A stretch of DNA of 8,011 bases from Chitinophagales bacterium (GTDB lineage Bacteria; Bacteroidota; Bacteroidia; Chitinophagales; UBA2359): NCBI GenBank assembly GCA_020629335.1, contig JAHDDN010000240.1:1-8011 (forward strand). The letters run 5' to 3'. The translations under genes and the position numbers were made by a program. Below the pieces are notes generated by a model. That model saw only the letters and a program-made list of their open reading frames with translations. It was not told the origin of the DNA and made no database searches. Positions 1,085 through 7,998 of the stretch are shown piece by piece; the stretch's first letter is position 1; each line of letters begins with the position of its first letter.

Positions 1085-3445
1085 TTAGATTTTGGCTTTG
1101 CCGTTAGACTTGATGTTTAGGAAGAGGCTTTTGATGTGTGGATCTAGTGTCCATTGGCCTTTTTTATCTTCGTAAATGATATTAAGGATTTTGCCGTATT
1201 CAAGATATTGAGCGATTTCTTGCATTTCAAAATTGTAGTCGCTGGCTTGCTCGTTAAGGAGAGTGAAGAGAGCTGACTTTGGAATGCTGTCACCGAAGAT
1301 GACGAATTGGTTAAAGAGACTTCGGGCTTTGGGACTATCAATGCCAAAACTTTTGATGAGTTTGTCTACCAATATTGGGTATTCAAATTGCTCTGCCATT
1401 TCCCAGAGATAGACTTCCCACTTGTCTGGATAATGTCGGGCTTCTGTGTAAAATTCATTGATTAGAGCGTGCCAGTTGCCTACTACTGCATTGAGTCGTT
1501 TGAGCTCGAAGTTTTTGAAACCTTTTGCTTTGAACCACATATAAATTAACTCATCCTCCCAATTGCGAAGGCTAATCATATTGCTTTTTTCGGCTTTGAT
1601 TAATTCGTGTAGTGTTTGGGCATTATTGCCAAGGAGATTTAAGAGTTGTGGGGGATGAATTAGAAAGACAATTTTGAAAGGAATTTCTTGGTATTCCTTG
1701 AGTAGTTTATTGGCTAATTTCAAAAATGCTAAGCAGTTAACTTCCTCCACTTGAATTAGGAAGATGGGAGCCTTTTTGGGATTTTCTTTTAATTCATCTA
1801 TGACGTCATACTTGAAATCGATGAGTTCTTTTTGGGTATTTTTGTAGCTTTTATCAATGACTCTTTTGCCCAATGTATTTTGTAAAAATTCACTGATTAG
1901 CACGATGCCAGACATGGCGCTACCTGCCACCATTAGCAGACCTGACTTTTTGGATTTAATGTAGTTGTAATCGTTTGCTAAAAGCGGGCTCAAAATCTCG
2001 GTCGAATAAAGCTTAGATTCATAAAGGACTCGACTATGTGGATGAAGTGGTGCAATGGAAGGTGCTGAATGTTTTAGAATCCATTTAGCTGGATTTTTAT
2101 CGCTATTTCCATTCTCAATGCGAATTTTATTAAATGGTTTTAAGGTAGCGAATTTAGTTTTTTCCTTTTTTTCTTGGGCTGGTATATTTTTCTTTTCTGC
2201 TGGAATTTCAAATAGCTCGTCTACTTGTTTTTGATTGAGTGGATCGTCGAGTTCTATAAGAGGTTTAGCCAACTGCTTCTTGTTTTCTTTGACCATTTGT
2301 ATATTACCCAGGAGAATCGCTCTATTAAATTCTTTTCCTAATGCTTCTACGATAATTGATTCGTAGACGCCTAATTTATTTTCATCTAATGATTGATTTT
2401 CTGTAACATGTTTTACATAATCCACCAAGTAATTGAAGAGGTGTTTGCCAGCATTCAGGCTTTGAATATAACTCGGTATATGATTGATGCTGATTTTATC
2501 TAATGCTATTTGCATTTCAATGGCTGCATCAAAACATCTTACCAGTGGTTTATAATGGGCTTTTTGTTTGTGGTATAGATTCAAAACTGACTCTAAATAT
2601 AAGGCTGGTTTCTTCTTGAGTTGGTTTAATTCTTCAGATGAACGCTCTGCTTCTATGCTTCTTTTCCAAAGGACTTTTAGGTGTTCGATATTCGCAATAT
2701 CTTCCACATTAAATGCTAGGCCTATTTGTCGGGCTTTATGAATGACGTAACCACGAAGTGCTTTAAATTGTTGTTCTGCTTTTCTGTATTTTCTTTGGAG
2801 CGTCTCAAAATCTGCTAATTTACCTTTGGCTAATTCTTGTGAAGCTTCTTGTAACATTTGCGCCACTTCATCAAAGACATATTGCATTCTTTCCGTCAGC
2901 TCAATGGTGATTTCATTGCCTTCAATTAAGCCATCTAATTCTTCAAAAATATCGTTTTCGGTATCTTCTGGAAAGCCTTTGAGCATGTTAAAGTAAGGAC
3001 TCCAACCTAACAAATGGGCCATCAGTGAGATACCTTCTTCTGAGTCTTTATCGATTTTTAGATGGGCAGGATTGAATAGATAACAAGCATCAGATTCTTT
3101 TACATCATTGGGGAGGAGCAACTTAAATTCCCCATTCAGATTAGCTCTCCAATCTTGATCTGGCTCATATCCACTGCTTTCTAATAGCTGAGTGGTGCGA
3201 TCTTTTAAGTCTGTATTTAGAATATACCAACGTTCAATCAAAAAAATGCAGAGCTGATCACTCTTCAAAGCCTTTTGGTAAATAATCTCTTTAATTTTAG
3301 GCAGAGGCTCGGCTCTAAGGGCAGCAATATCTTGAGCGGAAAACTCCCCTAATTGGAGGATACGGCTTTTATTTCGGGCGTACACCTCCTCTATGATTTG
3401 ACAACCAAAAGCATAGCTAAATTGATGAAATAGATTGGGACTCAT
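1085..3445 (-). CDS. Large protein of unknown function with degenerate P-loop ATPase-like domain
   Basis: I do not recognise this 786-residue protein. It has no signal peptide and no clear membrane segment, so it is probably cytoplasmic. Residues 1 to about 420 are helical and rich in charged residues, with a coiled-coil-like stretch near 175-235. A lysine-rich, low-complexity linker near 405-435 leads to a C-terminal half that reads like a STAND/AAA-type ATPase. There, LLMVAGSAMSGIVLISEFL has a Gly at 508 and 513 spaced as in GxxxxGK[ST], but Ile514 and Val515 replace Lys and Ser/Thr. IFLIQVEEV (about 561-569) sits where a Walker B strand would be, and FKIVFLIHPPQLL resembles a sensor strand. 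The last 100 or so residues look like helical and winged-helix segments. If this reading is right it is a pseudo-ATPase that may act as a scaffold or ligand sensor. The ATG is preceded by no obvious ribosome site, as usual in Bacteroidota. The gene is intact. The fold assignment is inference; coding status is secure from length and composition. Confidence 0.8.
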   Translation of the reverse strand: MSPNLFHQFSYAFGCQIIEEVYARNKSRILQLGEFSAQDIAALRAEPLPKIKEIIYQKALKSDQLCIFLIERWYILNTDLKDRTTQLLESSGYEPDQDWRANLNGEFKLLLPNDVKESDACYLFNPAHLKIDKDSEEGISLMAHLLGWSPYFNMLKGFPEDTENDIFEELDGLIEGNEITIELTERMQYVFDEVAQMLQEASQELAKGKLADFETLQRKYRKAEQQFKALRGYVIHKARQIGLAFNVEDIANIEHLKVLWKRSIEAERSSEELNQLKKKPALYLESVLNLYHKQKAHYKPLVRCFDAAIEMQIALDKISINHIPSYIQSLNAGKHLFNYLVDYVKHVTENQSLDENKLGVYESIIVEALGKEFNRAILLGNIQMVKENKKQLAKPLIELDDPLNQKQVDELFEIPAEKKNIPAQEKKEKTKFATLKPFNKIRIENGNSDKNPAKWILKHSAPSIAPLHPHSRVLYESKLYSTEILSPLLANDYNYIKSKKSGLLMVAGSAMSGIVLISEFLQNTLGKRVIDKSYKNTQKELIDFKYDVIDELKENPKKAPIFLIQVEEVNCLAFLKLANKLLKEYQEIPFKIVFLIHPPQLLNLLGNNAQTLHELIKAEKSNMISLRNWEDELIYMWFKAKGFKNFELKRLNAVVGNWHALINEFYTEARHYPDKWEVYLWEMAEQFEYPILVDKLIKSFGIDSPKARSLFNQFVIFGDSIPKSALFTLLNEQASDYNFEMQEIAQYLEYGKILNIIYEDKKGQWTLDPHIKSLFLNIKSNGKAKI

Positions 3446-3552: not shown

Positions 3553-3619
3553 AGGAAAATGTTTGATTTTTCCTCAGTTGAAAAAAAAATCACGCAAATT
3601 GGCTAGGAAATGGTTAATA

Positions 3620-3779
3620 GAGCTCATTTAAAGTTTTATGATGAAGCTGAAAATAAGGTGATTTTTCGTAGTTCAAGGCATTTTTGAGGTTCATAGCAGA
3701 GCTATGGGCCGATAAAATAACGCAGAAATACGGAAAATCAACTATTTTCTAAGCCAGCAGAAAAACTTTAAATGAGTTC
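3620..3779. repeat. Family-1 palindromic repeat, long form (160 nt)
   Basis: The two arms (3620-3697 and 3701-3779) are 78 and 79 nt and meet at a tip CATAGC-AGA-GCTATG. The outer ends are nearly perfect: GAGCTCATTTAAAGTTTT against AAAACTTTAAATGAGTTC, with one mismatch. The mid-arm sequences AAAATAAGGTGATTTTTCGTA and their partner near 3729-3749 also pair well, and the rest pairs imperfectly. No coding potential is seen. A shortened relative lies at 6884-6932. This looks like a dispersed REP/MITE-like intergenic element able to fold into one long hairpin; it could also affect transcription end or mRNA stability for the glycosyltransferase upstream on the minus strand. Confidence 0.8.
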
Positions 3780-3803
3780 ATATAGTAGATTAAAAGGCTT
3801 CAA

Positions 3804-3875: not shown

Positions 3876-4988
3876 CTAGGAAATTTTTAAGTTTTCAAAT
3901 TCTTTATCGTATTCTTTAATCATTGATTCCCAATCGTATTTCTCGACAAATTGTTGGGTGTTCTGTTTTCTTAATAATGCGATGTGAAAAAGCTGTCCTT
4001 GTAGGCGCTTGACCAACTCTTTTTCTTCTTGATAATAAAAAGTCGTATGATAAGCTTTAGGGCTATGCTCTGGATAGGCTAATCTGTTGGGTAATAAAGG
4101 AATACAATTGCAATACATAGCTTCTACCACGCTTCCTCCAAAAAAATCCTGAATGGAAGTCACCGCTAAAATATCTGATTTCCAAAGCAATTGGGCGTAT
4201 TCTTCTTTAGAGGCCGCATAACCCCAATGCAAAATATGCTCGGATAATCGTTCTTTGGCTGCTGCAAAAATAGGTGGATGCTTCGTCGTCTGTTCTCCCA
4301 TAACGATTAAATGAAATTTCATCCCTCGATCTTGTAAAGTAAATAAGGCATCAAAAAAGGCGACTGGATTTTTATCATATTCCCAACGATGATTCCAAAC
4401 AATGGTTCCAAAACGCTCCTTTTCTTGCGCAGCATCTTCAAAGGCATCAAAGTATTGCAAATCCAATCCTAAATAGAGCACTTGACTCTTTTGGGCAATC
4501 AGATCTACTGTAGCCAATTCTTTTTTATCTGGAAACTGCCCTAAAAATTCAGGCAATGCATTTAGAAAACTCTCTTGATGATAAGCCGAATTAAAGAAGA
4601 TTTTATCGGCTGAAAGTGCAGAGGTATAATTAATAAATGAATAGTGATTATCTCGCTTAAATGCCACATCCTGATCATTAGGTGACCAAGGATAAGTCAA
4701 CTGATTCTCATGGAAATATATGGCTGTAGGTAAATGAGCTGTTTGGCTTCTTGTTAAGCTCAAAAAGGTGCTCAAATCCAACATATCAGTCGCTAAAATC
4801 AAATCTGCTTCAAAGTCCGACTCTAAATACATTTGAGCAAGCGTAACAGCTCCACCATGCATACGCCACTTCCAATGCCTACCTGGCAAACTGAAAATTT
4901 GAATTTGATGCTTAGAGAATTTCTGCAAGGCATCTGCCCACTGTTGATGAGAGCCACTGTAAAAAGGTTCTATTAAAGCGATTTTCAT
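3876..4988 (-). CDS. Glycosyltransferase, DUF3524 / tRNA-queuosine mannosyltransferase-like
   Basis: This 370-residue cytosolic protein has the layout of the family containing vertebrate QTMAN (GTDC1), which adds mannose from GDP-mannose to queuosine in tRNA-Asp. The N-terminal DUF3524-type half shows IEPFYSGSHQQWADAL, GRHWKWRMHGGA (residues 36-47), ATDMLDLSTFLSL and YFHENQLTYPW (His93-Glu94-Asn95-Gln96). The C-terminal half is a GT-B nucleotide-sugar domain: IVWNHRWEYDKNP, FHLIVMGE and GGSVVEAMYCNCIPLLP (Glu289 in the position of the conserved acidic residue of the EX7E-type region). Length and motif order are complete. The start is supported by a TACCTTTG promoter box ending seven bases before the ATG. 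Bacterial members share the fold, but whether this one acts on tRNA queuosine or another acceptor cannot be read from the sequence. No queuosine synthesis gene is in the window. Family call is firm; substrate is inference. Confidence 0.88.
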   Translation of the reverse strand: MKIALIEPFYSGSHQQWADALQKFSKHQIQIFSLPGRHWKWRMHGGAVTLAQMYLESDFEADLILATDMLDLSTFLSLTRSQTAHLPTAIYFHENQLTYPWSPNDQDVAFKRDNHYSFINYTSALSADKIFFNSAYHQESFLNALPEFLGQFPDKKELATVDLIAQKSQVLYLGLDLQYFDAFEDAAQEKERFGTIVWNHRWEYDKNPVAFFDALFTLQDRGMKFHLIVMGEQTTKHPPIFAAAKERLSEHILHWGYAASKEEYAQLLWKSDILAVTSIQDFFGGSVVEAMYCNCIPLLPNRLAYPEHSPKAYHTTFYYQEEKELVKRLQGQLFHIALLRKQNTQQFVEKYDWESMIKEYDKEFENLKIS

Positions 4989-5002: not shown

Positions 5003-5018
5003 CAAACAATTTTTATTT

Positions 5019-5174
5019 GGGCGCATCCCTTCGGGTCAGGCTGTCCGCTCTTATGTGGCTATGCTACTCCTACTTTGCTAAGCGCTGCTTGTCTGCCCTG
5101 CGGGCCAGCCATCGCATCACTAAGCGCCGTAAGTCGCAGCATGGCCGCCACATACCGCTTCCATCCTTTGCGCA
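5019..5174 (+). repeat. Family-2 GC-rich palindromic repeat, copy A (156 nt)
   Basis: The element runs from GGGCGCATCCCTTCGGG to CCTTTGCGCA and stands out as much richer in G+C than the flanking DNA. It matches the reverse complement of 7798-7952: the first 17 bases are identical, the next part (CCGCTCTTATGTGGCTAT) is identical too, and the last 29 or so differ at a few positions, while the centre has diverged. It is also an imperfect palindrome within itself: GCGCA against TGCGC at the ends and TATGTGGC (5052-5059) against GCCACATA (5147-5154). It sits between two divergent genes, immediately before the ATPase promoter. No coding frame is seen. Confidence 0.85.
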
Positions 5175-5190
5175 TAGATTTTGAATAGAC

Positions 5191-5221
5191 TTGTATAACA
5201 CACTAATTTTTAATACATTTG
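5191..5221 (+). promoter_or_regulatory. Bacteroidota-type promoter of the ATPase-nuclease operon
   Basis: TTG (5191-5193), a 20-base spacer and TACATTTG (5214-5221) match the primary sigma-factor consensus of this phylum (TTG, 19-21 bases, TAnnTTTG). Transcription would start near 5226-5229, giving a leader of about 12 nt before the ATG at 5240. The leader is A-rich (AACAAAAAATT) and has no Shine-Dalgarno sequence, as is normal in these bacteria. The promoter begins 17 bp after the end of the GC-rich repeat. Confidence 0.75.
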
Positions 5222-5239: not shown

Positions 5240-6469
5240 ATGAGGGAAAGCCTATACATAAGTAATTTTGCAGGAATTAAAGAATTGGAGTTGTCATTTA
5301 CTTCTATTAACATATTGATTGGCCCACAAGCTTCTGGGAAAAGTGTAATTGTTAAATTGATGTATTTTTTTAAAAAATTCTTTTGCGAAATTAAAGATGG
5401 TATTGAGAGAGGTGAAAACAAAAGAACTATTGACAATAATCAAAAAGCAAAGTTCATTAAATACTTCCCAACCGAATCATGGCCTAAAGGAAGCTTTACT
5501 ATTAAGTACCAAGTAGATCAAGTAGTTTTCACTATTGAAAAGACTCGAAAATCTACTCTCAAATTCGGCTATTCTGATGTTCTCATTAATACTTTTAATA
5601 ATTATAAAAAAGTTTTTTCTAATTATAAAGAACAGCATCAATTCTCCAATATTCTACCCAAATTAAACAAACAGTATTATGATCAAATAAGTGAAGAACT
5701 ATCTCCTATATCCTCTAATATGCAAAGATTTATTCCAGCAGGAAGAAGTTTTTTCGCTAATATACAAGCTAATATATTTTCACTTTTAAGCACTAATCAA
5801 TCATTAGACCCTTTCTTAATAGAGTTTGGGGCTTTTTACGAACAATATAAAAGCTTGTTACAAAAAAGAAAACTACAGAAACAATCTAAAGATTTTGATA
5901 AAATCATATCTACAATTTTAAAAGGAAAGTATATTCGTAAGAGAGACAAAGATTATTTAATACATGATGATGGTAGAGTGATCAATCTCTTAATGGCTTC
6001 TTCAGGTCAACAAGAGATATTACCATTAATGATCGTCTTAAAAGCATTCCACGATTATCAAGTTAGTGAGAACAGAGGCTTATCTTTATACATTGAAGAA
6101 CCAGAAGCTCACTTATTCCCAAATGCTCAGAAAAGTATCGTACAATTATTAGCACGAACTTTTAACTCAAATAGTAATTATCAACTTTTTATTACGACTC
6201 ACAGTCCTTACATTCTTGCCGCCTTTAATAATTTAATTGAAGCTGGTCGACTTAACACGCACATCAATGGAAGTGGAGAAAAACTATACAAGATTGTTCC
6301 AGTTGAAGAAATGATTGATCCAAAAAAAATAATCGCTTACTCCTTAAATAATAGCAAGAAAAAATCATTAATTAATAAATCTACTTCCCTAATCTCTTAT
6401 AACGATTTAGATGCTGTTTCTAATGATATTGCTGTCCAATTTGAAAAATTATTAGACCTAGAGTTTTAG
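5240..6469 (+). CDS. OLD/RecF-like AAA ATPase without nuclease domain
   Basis: This 409-residue ATPase has the ABC-type head seen in OLD, RecF and SMC-like proteins. The N-terminal strand pair (LYISNFAGIKELELSF) leads to Walker A GPQASGKS (28-35). FIPAGR (164-169) matches the IPAxR motif common in AAA_15/AAA_21 proteins. A signature-like ASSGQQEILPL lies at 253-263, Walker B LSLYIEEPEAHLFP at 281-294 with catalytic Glu286/Glu287, and the switch histidine is in ITTHSPYIL (His321). Residues 36-160 and 170-250 are lysine-rich helical insertions in place of a long coiled coil. After His321 only about 88 residues remain, too few for the TOPRIM domain of OLD or Gabija GajA, so it has no nuclease of its own. 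It is not a transporter: no membrane partner is present. The stop codon is two bases before the next gene, so the two are almost certainly co-transcribed and likely form a complex. It appears more A+T-rich than the glycosyltransferase by eye, consistent with transfer. Biological role (defence) is inferred from architecture. Confidence 0.9.
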   Translation: MRESLYISNFAGIKELELSFTSINILIGPQASGKSVIVKLMYFFKKFFCEIKDGIERGENKRTIDNNQKAKFIKYFPTESWPKGSFTIKYQVDQVVFTIEKTRKSTLKFGYSDVLINTFNNYKKVFSNYKEQHQFSNILPKLNKQYYDQISEELSPISSNMQRFIPAGRSFFANIQANIFSLLSTNQSLDPFLIEFGAFYEQYKSLLQKRKLQKQSKDFDKIISTILKGKYIRKRDKDYLIHDDGRVINLLMASSGQQEILPLMIVLKAFHDYQVSENRGLSLYIEEPEAHLFPNAQKSIVQLLARTFNSNSNYQLFITTHSPYILAAFNNLIEAGRLNTHINGSGEKLYKIVPVEEMIDPKKIIAYSLNNSKKKSLINKSTSLISYNDLDAVSNDIAVQFEKLLDLEF

Positions 6470-6471
6470 AA

Positions 6472-6885
6472 ATGGAATCAAAAGAAAAGTGTACTAAAAC
6501 GACTGAAAATCCACTTATTAAAATTAAGGAAAAAACAAGTCAACTTATTTTTGTTAACAAACACAAAAAGTTAGTTAAGCTTGTTGAAGTAGACGGCTGT
6601 CAAATAGATGATGACGGTGTAAAGTGCGATTTTGCCGCTTGTATTGAAGATAAGGAATATTATATTGAACTAAAAGGTCAAGATATTCGACACGCTATTA
6701 AACAAATTAAAAGAACAATTCAATTATTGAGTGAAGCTCCTAAACATAAGCCTAAAATTTGCTTCGTGATTTGTAATAGAGTTCCATTGGCTTCTGCGCA
6801 AATTCAAAATATTCAAGTAGCTTTCAAAAGGGAATTTAATTCTAAATTGATTGTTAAAAGGTCGCCATATCGCTATATTATATGA
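6472..6885 (+). CDS. Small putative PD-(D/E)XK nuclease paired with the AAA ATPase
   Basis: This is a 137-residue soluble protein without a signal peptide. The centre reads KCDFAACIEDKEYYIELKGQ: Asp53 and then Glu66-Leu67-Lys68, 12 residues apart. This is the D...ExK arrangement of PD-(D/E)XK nucleases, with the acidic and lysine residues at the ends of two neighbouring beta strands. A helix follows (DIRHAIKQIKRTIQLL) with Gln78 and basic residues placed as in Holliday-junction-resolvase-like and restriction folds, then a strand KICFVICNR (95-103) and a final strand IVKRSPYRYI. Glu39 in LVEVDG could be the first-helix acid. The fold could alternatively be a non-catalytic relative. The gene starts two bases after the ATPase stop (translational coupling likely), so its job is probably to cut or bind nucleic acid under ATPase control. 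Its stop codon overlaps the first bases of the 49-nt repeat at 6884. No close named family is recognised. Confidence 0.7.
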   Translation: MESKEKCTKTTENPLIKIKEKTSQLIFVNKHKKLVKLVEVDGCQIDDDGVKCDFAACIEDKEYYIELKGQDIRHAIKQIKRTIQLLSEAPKHKPKICFVICNRVPLASAQIQNIQVAFKREFNSKLIVKRSPYRYII

Positions 6886-6932
6886 ACTCATTTAAAGTTT
6901 TATGGTGAAGCAGAAAAACTTTAAACGAGTTC
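6884..6932. repeat. Family-1 palindromic repeat, short form (49 nt)
   Basis: GAACTCATTTAAAGTTTT (6884-6901) and AAAACTTTAAACGAGTTC (6915-6932) form an 18-bp stem with one mismatch around a 13-base loop. The sequence matches the two ends of the 160-nt element at 3620-3779 joined at an AGC, lacking exactly 111 nt of its centre. It overlaps the last two bases of the nuclease stop codon, and in the transcript would form a strong hairpin that could act as a 3' stabiliser or partial terminator between the ATPase-nuclease pair and the next gene. There is no T-tract directly after it. Confidence 0.8.
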
Positions 6933-6947
6933 TATAAATCAAAACAA

Positions 6948-7790
6948 ATGAACGCTAAATTTTTAACCCTCCCTATTCTACTCCTCTTAACAAGCTTTAC
7001 CCAACTTACTTATGGACAAATCGCTATAGGTACGGGAGGAGACTTAATGAGAAGTCGTATATATTTTGCCAACAATCAATTGTACTATTTAGGCATCGAT
7101 AGTATTTCTACTAATGTATATACTGTCATGCCTAGTGATAAATATAATTGGAGTTATAGTACCAGCATTTATTTTCAAAAGCAACTGAGCTCTCATTTAA
7201 TCCTTGAAGTGGCAATTGCTCAGAGCATGATAAAGGATAAAGTTAAGATAAACGAGTACTTTGATCCCTCCTCTCCTACTCCTTATATTTTTGAAGAGTA
7301 CTCGAGTCTTCTAAATAATTATGGTGAATTGACAGAAATACCATTTCTAGGTGTCTTTCCTAGTATTACTGATGTAGTTAACGAAACAAATGAAATAGAC
7401 ATTCGGTTAAGAACTTTCAATATCCCGCTTTCCCTTATGTATACCCCCAATATCACTCCTCGATCTAAAATGCTATTCAAAATTGGCCTAAGTGCAAATC
7501 TCATTGTCAATCATGATATAGACACAAAACTCGAATTTCACTTATACGATATCAATGCCGAAAAGGCATTTAAATTAGTTCAAACAGCTCATGTATTAGG
7601 TATGGGATACCGCTTTTCTTTCTCAAATTCCAAATATTTCGACCTTATATTTCAAACTAGTACAAGTTTATATTCTATTTCTAATATTCAAGCATTTAAA
7701 CCTTATGAAGATCAGTCTTCCATAGACGTTCCTCCTATTAAAAGAAGGGGCTTTGGTATTCAGCTGAAGTATTTTTGGGGGAAGCTTTAA
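6948..7790 (+). CDS. Predicted exported protein, probable outer-membrane beta-barrel
   Basis: The 280-residue product starts with a Sec signal peptide (MNAKFLTLPILLLLTSFTQL), probably cut after Gly23 in LTYG-QIAIG. The mature part is rich in alternating aromatic/polar strands, for example WSYSTSIYFQKQL, LILEVAIAQSM, RTFNIPLSLMYTP, MLFKIGLSANLIV, MGYRFSFS and the last strand FGIQLKYFWG. This is the pattern of small PorT-like or OmpA-like outer-membrane barrels of Bacteroidota. No periplasmic binding domain or enzyme motif is visible. The gene lies 62 nt after the nuclease gene with the short palindrome in between, and no separate TAnnTTTG promoter is evident, so it may be read from the ATPase promoter or be an unrelated neighbour. 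The ATG follows an A-rich leader (ATCAAAACAA). Function is not known; barrel assignment is from strand pattern and signal peptide. Confidence 0.72.
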   Translation: MNAKFLTLPILLLLTSFTQLTYGQIAIGTGGDLMRSRIYFANNQLYYLGIDSISTNVYTVMPSDKYNWSYSTSIYFQKQLSSHLILEVAIAQSMIKDKVKINEYFDPSSPTPYIFEEYSSLLNNYGELTEIPFLGVFPSITDVVNETNEIDIRLRTFNIPLSLMYTPNITPRSKMLFKIGLSANLIVNHDIDTKLEFHLYDINAEKAFKLVQTAHVLGMGYRFSFSNSKYFDLIFQTSTSLYSISNIQAFKPYEDQSSIDVPPIKRRGFGIQLKYFWGKL

Positions 7791-7797
7791 CGTTTTT

Positions 7798-7952
7798 TGC
7801 GCAAGGGATAGGAGCGGTATGTGGCGTAATGAGGCAGCTTATGGAGCTTAGGCAGACGCAGGCTGGCCTGCAAGGCAGACAAGTATGCCTTAGCGGAATA
7901 GCTGCCGAATAGCCACATAAGAGCGGATAGCCCGGCCCGAAGGGATGCGCCC
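7798..7952 (-). repeat. Family-2 GC-rich palindromic repeat, copy B (155 nt, inverted)
   Basis: Read on the minus strand this copy starts GGGCGCATCCCTTCGGG and ends CCCTTGCGCA, mirroring 5019-5174 with almost the same length. The TATGTGGC (7818-7825) and GCCACATA (7912-7919) arms are kept, while the centre has diverged from copy A. It begins eight bases after the stop codon of the barrel gene. The two copies point their GGGCGC ends outward, so together they frame the ATPase, nuclease and barrel genes like long inverted repeats. Confidence 0.85.
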
Positions 7953-7954
7953 AG

Positions 7955-7998
7955 AATAAAAAAAGGGTAGCCTTGAAAATAAATTCATGAGGCTACCC
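7955..7998 (-). terminator. Rho-independent terminator for a minus-strand gene right of the window
   Basis: GGGTAGCCT (7965-7973) and AGGCTACCC (7990-7998) form a perfect 9-bp G+C-rich stem, extended by TGAA/TTCA. On the minus strand the stem is followed by seven T residues (7964-7958) and then ATT, which is the classical layout. It therefore ends transcription coming from the right, implying a minus-strand gene just outside the window that converges on the barrel gene. Confidence 0.85.

Follow-up and report, generated by a model that had tools for sequence, protein, structure and literature searches.

An 8,011-nucleotide (nt) stretch of contig JAHDDN010000240.1 from a Chitinophagales bacterium (GCA_020629335.1; hereafter the window) carries two adjacent genes, A and B, encoding an OLD/AAA_15-type ABC ATPase and a small PD-(D/E)XK-like protein (Table 1), which together probably form a divergent two-gene abortive infection system of the WonAB-like kind. 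A preliminary description of this DNA, made from the sequence alone, had matched the pair to no named system; this no longer holds, as a system of this kind has already been described, and tested, in other work, with the window pair forming a diverged branch of that kind. WonAB is a prophage-borne pair in which an OLD-type ABC ATPase is joined by a PD-(D/E)xK protein of 16.1 kDa. It has tested anti-phage activity, aborting infection before new phages form and requiring both genes for protection, which is lost with the substitutions K34A, R182A, E300A or H333A in WonA (AWB73975.1) or K71A in WonB (AWB73976.1; PMC12137116). The authors related it to PD-T4-4 and to an operon, 'OLD-ABC ATPase + Novel REase', proposed earlier in silico, and their paper also gives accessions for an Anaerovibrio pair, SHI83489.1 and SHI83462.1 (PMC12137116). 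With the window pair, this little-studied and newly described design, in which a small PD-(D/E)XK effector is encoded apart from the OLD-type ATPase, now includes a diverged branch found in several phyla.

Both open reading frames (ORFs) and the motifs named for them in the preliminary description are correct in coordinates and residues. The A protein contains a Walker A motif (GPQASGKS, with K34), R169 (in PAGR), SSGQQ at 254-258, YIEEPEAH (with E286 and E287) and H321, with K34, R169, S254, S255, E286, E287 and H321 identical in all 50 aligned A proteins. The Pfam matches of A included AAA_15 (4.6e-28) and AAA_21 (8.8e-19), and at this level of family search TOPRIM was not one of them, in keeping with the earlier reading of an ATPase that lacks a nuclease domain. 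In fold comparisons A was closest to the PtuA protein of Septu and retrons, followed by AriA of PARIS, with PtuA scoring above Rad50. Judging from its motifs and predicted fold, A would dimerise on ATP.

Gene B begins 2 nt past the stop codon of A and in the same direction. Its candidate active site comprises Asp53 followed by Glu66-x-Lys68, and across 70 aligned B proteins N29, D53, E66, K68 and Q78 are identical in every sequence while C7, D41, C43, C52 and P105 are near-invariant. Pfam returned nothing above a cut-off for B, with no HNH and no DUF4435 match, and a single-sequence search of a large protein database recovered B itself and two other proteins at E ≤0.001. The predicted structure (predicted local distance difference test, pLDDT, 94) has PD-(D/E)XK topology which, taken with the invariant D53, E66 and K68, bears out the earlier suggestion that the small protein is nuclease-like, and from alignment and model we infer that B is a small PD-(D/E)XK nuclease. 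One of the three near-invariant cysteines, C52, adjoins D53, and C7, C43 and C52 may form a metal or redox site.

WonAB and the window pair share gene order, both ATPases are of the OLD-type ABC class without TOPRIM and the PD-(D/E)xK partners are alike in size (16.1 kDa for WonB and 15.9 kDa for B). By position and motif only, the counterparts of WonA K34, R182, E300 and H333 are K34, R169, E287 and H321 of A, invariant in 50/50 A proteins, and the counterpart of the essential WonB K71 is K68 of B, invariant along with D53 and E66 in 70/70 B proteins. The spacing from R to E is 118 in both ATPases and that from E to H is 33 in WonA and 34 in A, whereas K and R lie 148 apart in WonA and 135 apart in A. 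The view that the pair works like WonAB is better supported than membership in WonAB proper. A search of the retrieved loci and proteins with a residue-position fingerprint did not identify WonA or WonB. Three E. coli loci (L088, L089 and L094) were considered as WonAB itself and rejected since the WonB numbers fit (K71, 16.1 kDa) but those of WonA do not, while a further locus (L107) was rejected on its residue positions. In a protein search no Vibrio name was seen among 95 matches, most of which carried no name, and a wider literature search held no further report of WonAB among the matches listed.

That A and B are a conserved unit is apparent from a scan of GTDB with A, in which 80 loci were kept out of 108 relatives. 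The 16 top matches were all titled Bacteroidota, with the titles of the 80 loci covering Bacteroidota, Cyanobacteria, Pseudomonadota, Verrucomicrobia and others. Four loci (L025, L038, L054 and L074) stop short of the position of B, leaving 76 that could be judged, and in 71 of these a B reading frame lies directly downstream of A (three, L018, L026 and L072, run off the contig and two, L064 and L066, are short, with the genome search giving an in-frame stop there). Partial or disrupted copies of B account for four more (L010, L019, L036 and L042), and a single locus (L009, A relative at 630-1868) has no B within the following 8.0 kb. As the loci were chosen by likeness to the A of the window, the count is uninformative on AAA_15 ATPases at large. 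The gap between the genes, with start codons set by script, was -17 to +8 nt in 64/71 loci, B often overlapping A. For 42 of these genomes the B profile found one strong copy per genome, plus four weak extra matches in all, two of them core copies of the candidate system PDC-M29 (see below). Distances among A proteins correlate with those among B proteins (r 0.857 over 46 pairs; the highest of 5000 shuffles ≤0.405), indicating joint inheritance rather than contact. The 80 loci have 788 flanking ORFs, and clustering of these gave no candidate for a third component; the shared clusters, named by eye, were ABC-transporter-like proteins, genes of ordinary function and synteny within a genus. The earlier proposal that an OLD-type ATPase is here paired with a different type of effector is upheld: the pair is conserved across phyla, and WonAB, which shares its design, is a published system with tested anti-phage activity.

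Among catalogued models, the A-B family is only weakly recognised by PADLOC. The sole match of B was PDC-M29B (28.6 bits), while A matched a generic AriA model (110 bits) and then PDC-M29A (96.6 bits). At family level PDC-M29B was matched by 59/70 B proteins (E ≤0.01) and PDC-M29A by 50/50 A proteins (1e-10), with the AriA, NsnB and PDC-M56A models also matching the latter. PDC-M29 has the same two-gene design and its partners are homologous to those of the window in profile comparison (E 3.5e-41 for A; probability 96.9% and E 1.4e-10 for B). However, core PDC-M29 members score 594.9 bits for A and 205.7 or 331.2 bits for B with the same models, far above the window proteins, and core membership was rejected on this ground, such that the PADLOC comparison raised in the preliminary description names the nearest specific models but does not place the pair within their core. 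In two Chitinophaga genomes a core PDC-M29 pair (L081 and L082) and the A-B family of the window occupy separate loci, and on sequence the A-B family is read as a sister of PDC-M29, which connects WonAB with that candidate. The PDC candidates derive from a 'guilt-by-embedding' approach, and most are stated to lack validation (PMC12988326). A literature search on the term PDC-M29 found nothing. A variant pair in a Hymenobacter genome (G009; L083, 194-2034) combines an ATPase with a 194-residue protein bearing D...EFK and a weak PDC-M29B match.

In OLD and in GajA of Gabija the TOPRIM domain is within the ATPase chain, in contrast to A, and the AriB partner in PARIS is a DUF4435/TOPRIM protein, whereas B matches neither DUF4435 in Pfam nor AriB in PADLOC. 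No match of B to PD-T4-4_B was found in PADLOC. Septu shares with A the PtuA-like ATPase fold, but PtuB is an HNH nuclease (HNH also appears in the PDB titles of the structural matches) while B has PD-(D/E)XK motifs and topology with no HNH or PtuB family match. The nearness of A to PtuA does lend some weight to a Septu- or Gabija-like module where licensing by A would let B cut DNA, of phage or host, rather than RNA. In the same direction, the weak structural matches of B are mostly DNA-acting enzymes (Mus81-Eme1, Hjc, EndoMS and FokI), together with Can2/Cdn1, and it is this resemblance that keeps a DNA target in play, although the matches are too weak to decide. The closest tested analogue points the other way, as overproduced WonB is toxic and arrests translation without degrading genomic DNA (PMC12137116), and DNA cutting is accordingly regarded as a possible but less probable function of the module.

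In the WonAB-like reading preferred here, A would act as sensor and regulator of infection, holding and licensing B, probably at its C-terminal region, about residues 346-409, if the prediction published for WonAB (PMC12137116) is taken as a guide. Phage infection would lead A to activate or release B, and active B would cut nucleic acid, stopping the host before phage assembly. From the WonB data, RNA needed for translation is the likelier target of B over genomic DNA. The small size of B, its position immediately 3′ of A, frequently with overlap, and the toxicity of overproduced WonB would also suit a toxin-antitoxin pair, with A doing no more than sequester a toxic B. However, the toxicity of WonB depends on WonA with a working ATPase (PMC12137116), which speaks against simple sequestration, and the ATPase motifs of A are invariant, making a toxin-antitoxin pair very unlikely. 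The counterpart residues set out above supply a residue map for tests of the WonAB-like mechanism.

Relatives of the pair are also carried by prophages. In E. coli they were found in 10 of 5426 complete genomes, with A 36% and B 29% identical to the window proteins and RefSeq names of 'AAA family ATPase' and 'hypothetical protein'. In the one E. coli region inspected, that of E24377A (L100, 6007-7754), the pair is located within a P2-like prophage, flanked by a replication endonuclease gene and a partial portal gene, and this locus in P2-like prophages has been described as a hotspot for anti-phage systems (PMC9122126). The tape-measure gene of the same prophage is interrupted by an IS21-like element. 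Further relatives were found on contigs that IMG/VR classes as viral (12 and 41 loci in overlapping sets, many of the 41 short and weak), and phage records gave two matches at 1e-10, one of them full-length (25.5%). Tblastn against plasmids gave no match for the A of the window (1e-30) or of E. coli (1e-20). A Rad50/Mre11-like ATPase working with an Hjc-like resolvase in DNA repair or recombination, and not in defence, would be an unlikely identity for a pair found in prophages, once at a published defence hotspot, and in so few E. coli genomes; the higher score of A with PtuA than with Rad50 also tells against it.

The enrichment near defence genes envisaged in the preliminary description was not borne out by a crude neighbour test in 42 genomes, in which the positions of N6_Mtase, HsdS and cas1 were compared by eye with those of B. 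Type I restriction-modification genes lay ≤20 kb from B in 2/42 genomes (G021 and G033), which is not significant against an expectation, calculated disregarding short contigs, of 0.93 for N6_Mtase (P 0.24) and ≤1.17 for HsdS (P 0.33), and cas1 lay within the same distance in 1/42 (about 7 kb, G007 contig C57).

More speculatively, and on balance doubtfully, B might belong to a widespread clade of minimal PD-(D/E)XK effectors in Bacteroidota, Cyanobacteria, Pseudomonadota and others that serve as ATPase-licensed RNases and block translation, with C7, C43 and C52 as a metal or redox switch element, and with WonAB, PDC-M29 and the A-B family of the window as branches of one large, mostly unexplored superfamily of OLD-ATPase and REase pairs.

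Table 1. Features of the window, with position, strand and supporting evidence.
Feature	Position	Strand	Evidence
Gene A, 409-aa OLD/AAA_15-type ABC ATPase, proposed sensor/regulator	5240..6469	+	ORF, Pfam, motifs, fold
Gene B, 137-aa (15.9 kDa) protein of PD-(D/E)XK-like type, putative nuclease effector	6472..6885	+	ORF, alignment, model
Possible Bacteroidota-type promoter, TTG-N20-TAnnTTTG	5191..5221	+	Sole match to the consensus in the window; weak
Hairpin formed by a palindrome at the end of B; may be a terminator	6876..6941	+	Folding -20.2 kcal/mol, z -6.5
786-aa ORF	1085-3445	-	No Pfam match up to E 1
Probable tRNA-queuosine alpha-mannosyltransferase	3876-4988	-	QTMAN_N 2.7e-62
280-aa protein, signal-peptide-like start (by eye)	6948-7790	+	No Pfam match; within inverted repeat
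Imperfect inverted repeat, 165-nt arms	5010-5174 / 7798-7961		Arms 78% alike

The pair had been described as lying in repeat-bounded, AT-rich DNA with a good promoter of its own. The first part stands, in that the arms of the imperfect inverted repeat enclose A, B and the 280-residue ORF and a palindrome lies at the end of B, with the GC content per 500-base block at 27-31% within 5501-7000 and 30-41% in the remaining blocks. No similar copy of the 165-nt repeat, which might bound a mobile cassette, was found in the loci searched. The promoter claim survives only in weakened form. No sigma-70-like site was found on the + strand from 4980 to the start of A, while TTG-N20-TAnnTTTG is a Bacteroidota-like promoter consensus and its one site ends 18 nt 5′ of the ATG of A; the pattern is expected 0.28 times by chance and at least one site occurs in 53/200 shuffled windows. 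None of 200 shuffles folded as well as the hairpin at the end of B, and a palindromic intergenic repeat at 3611-3787 is related to it.
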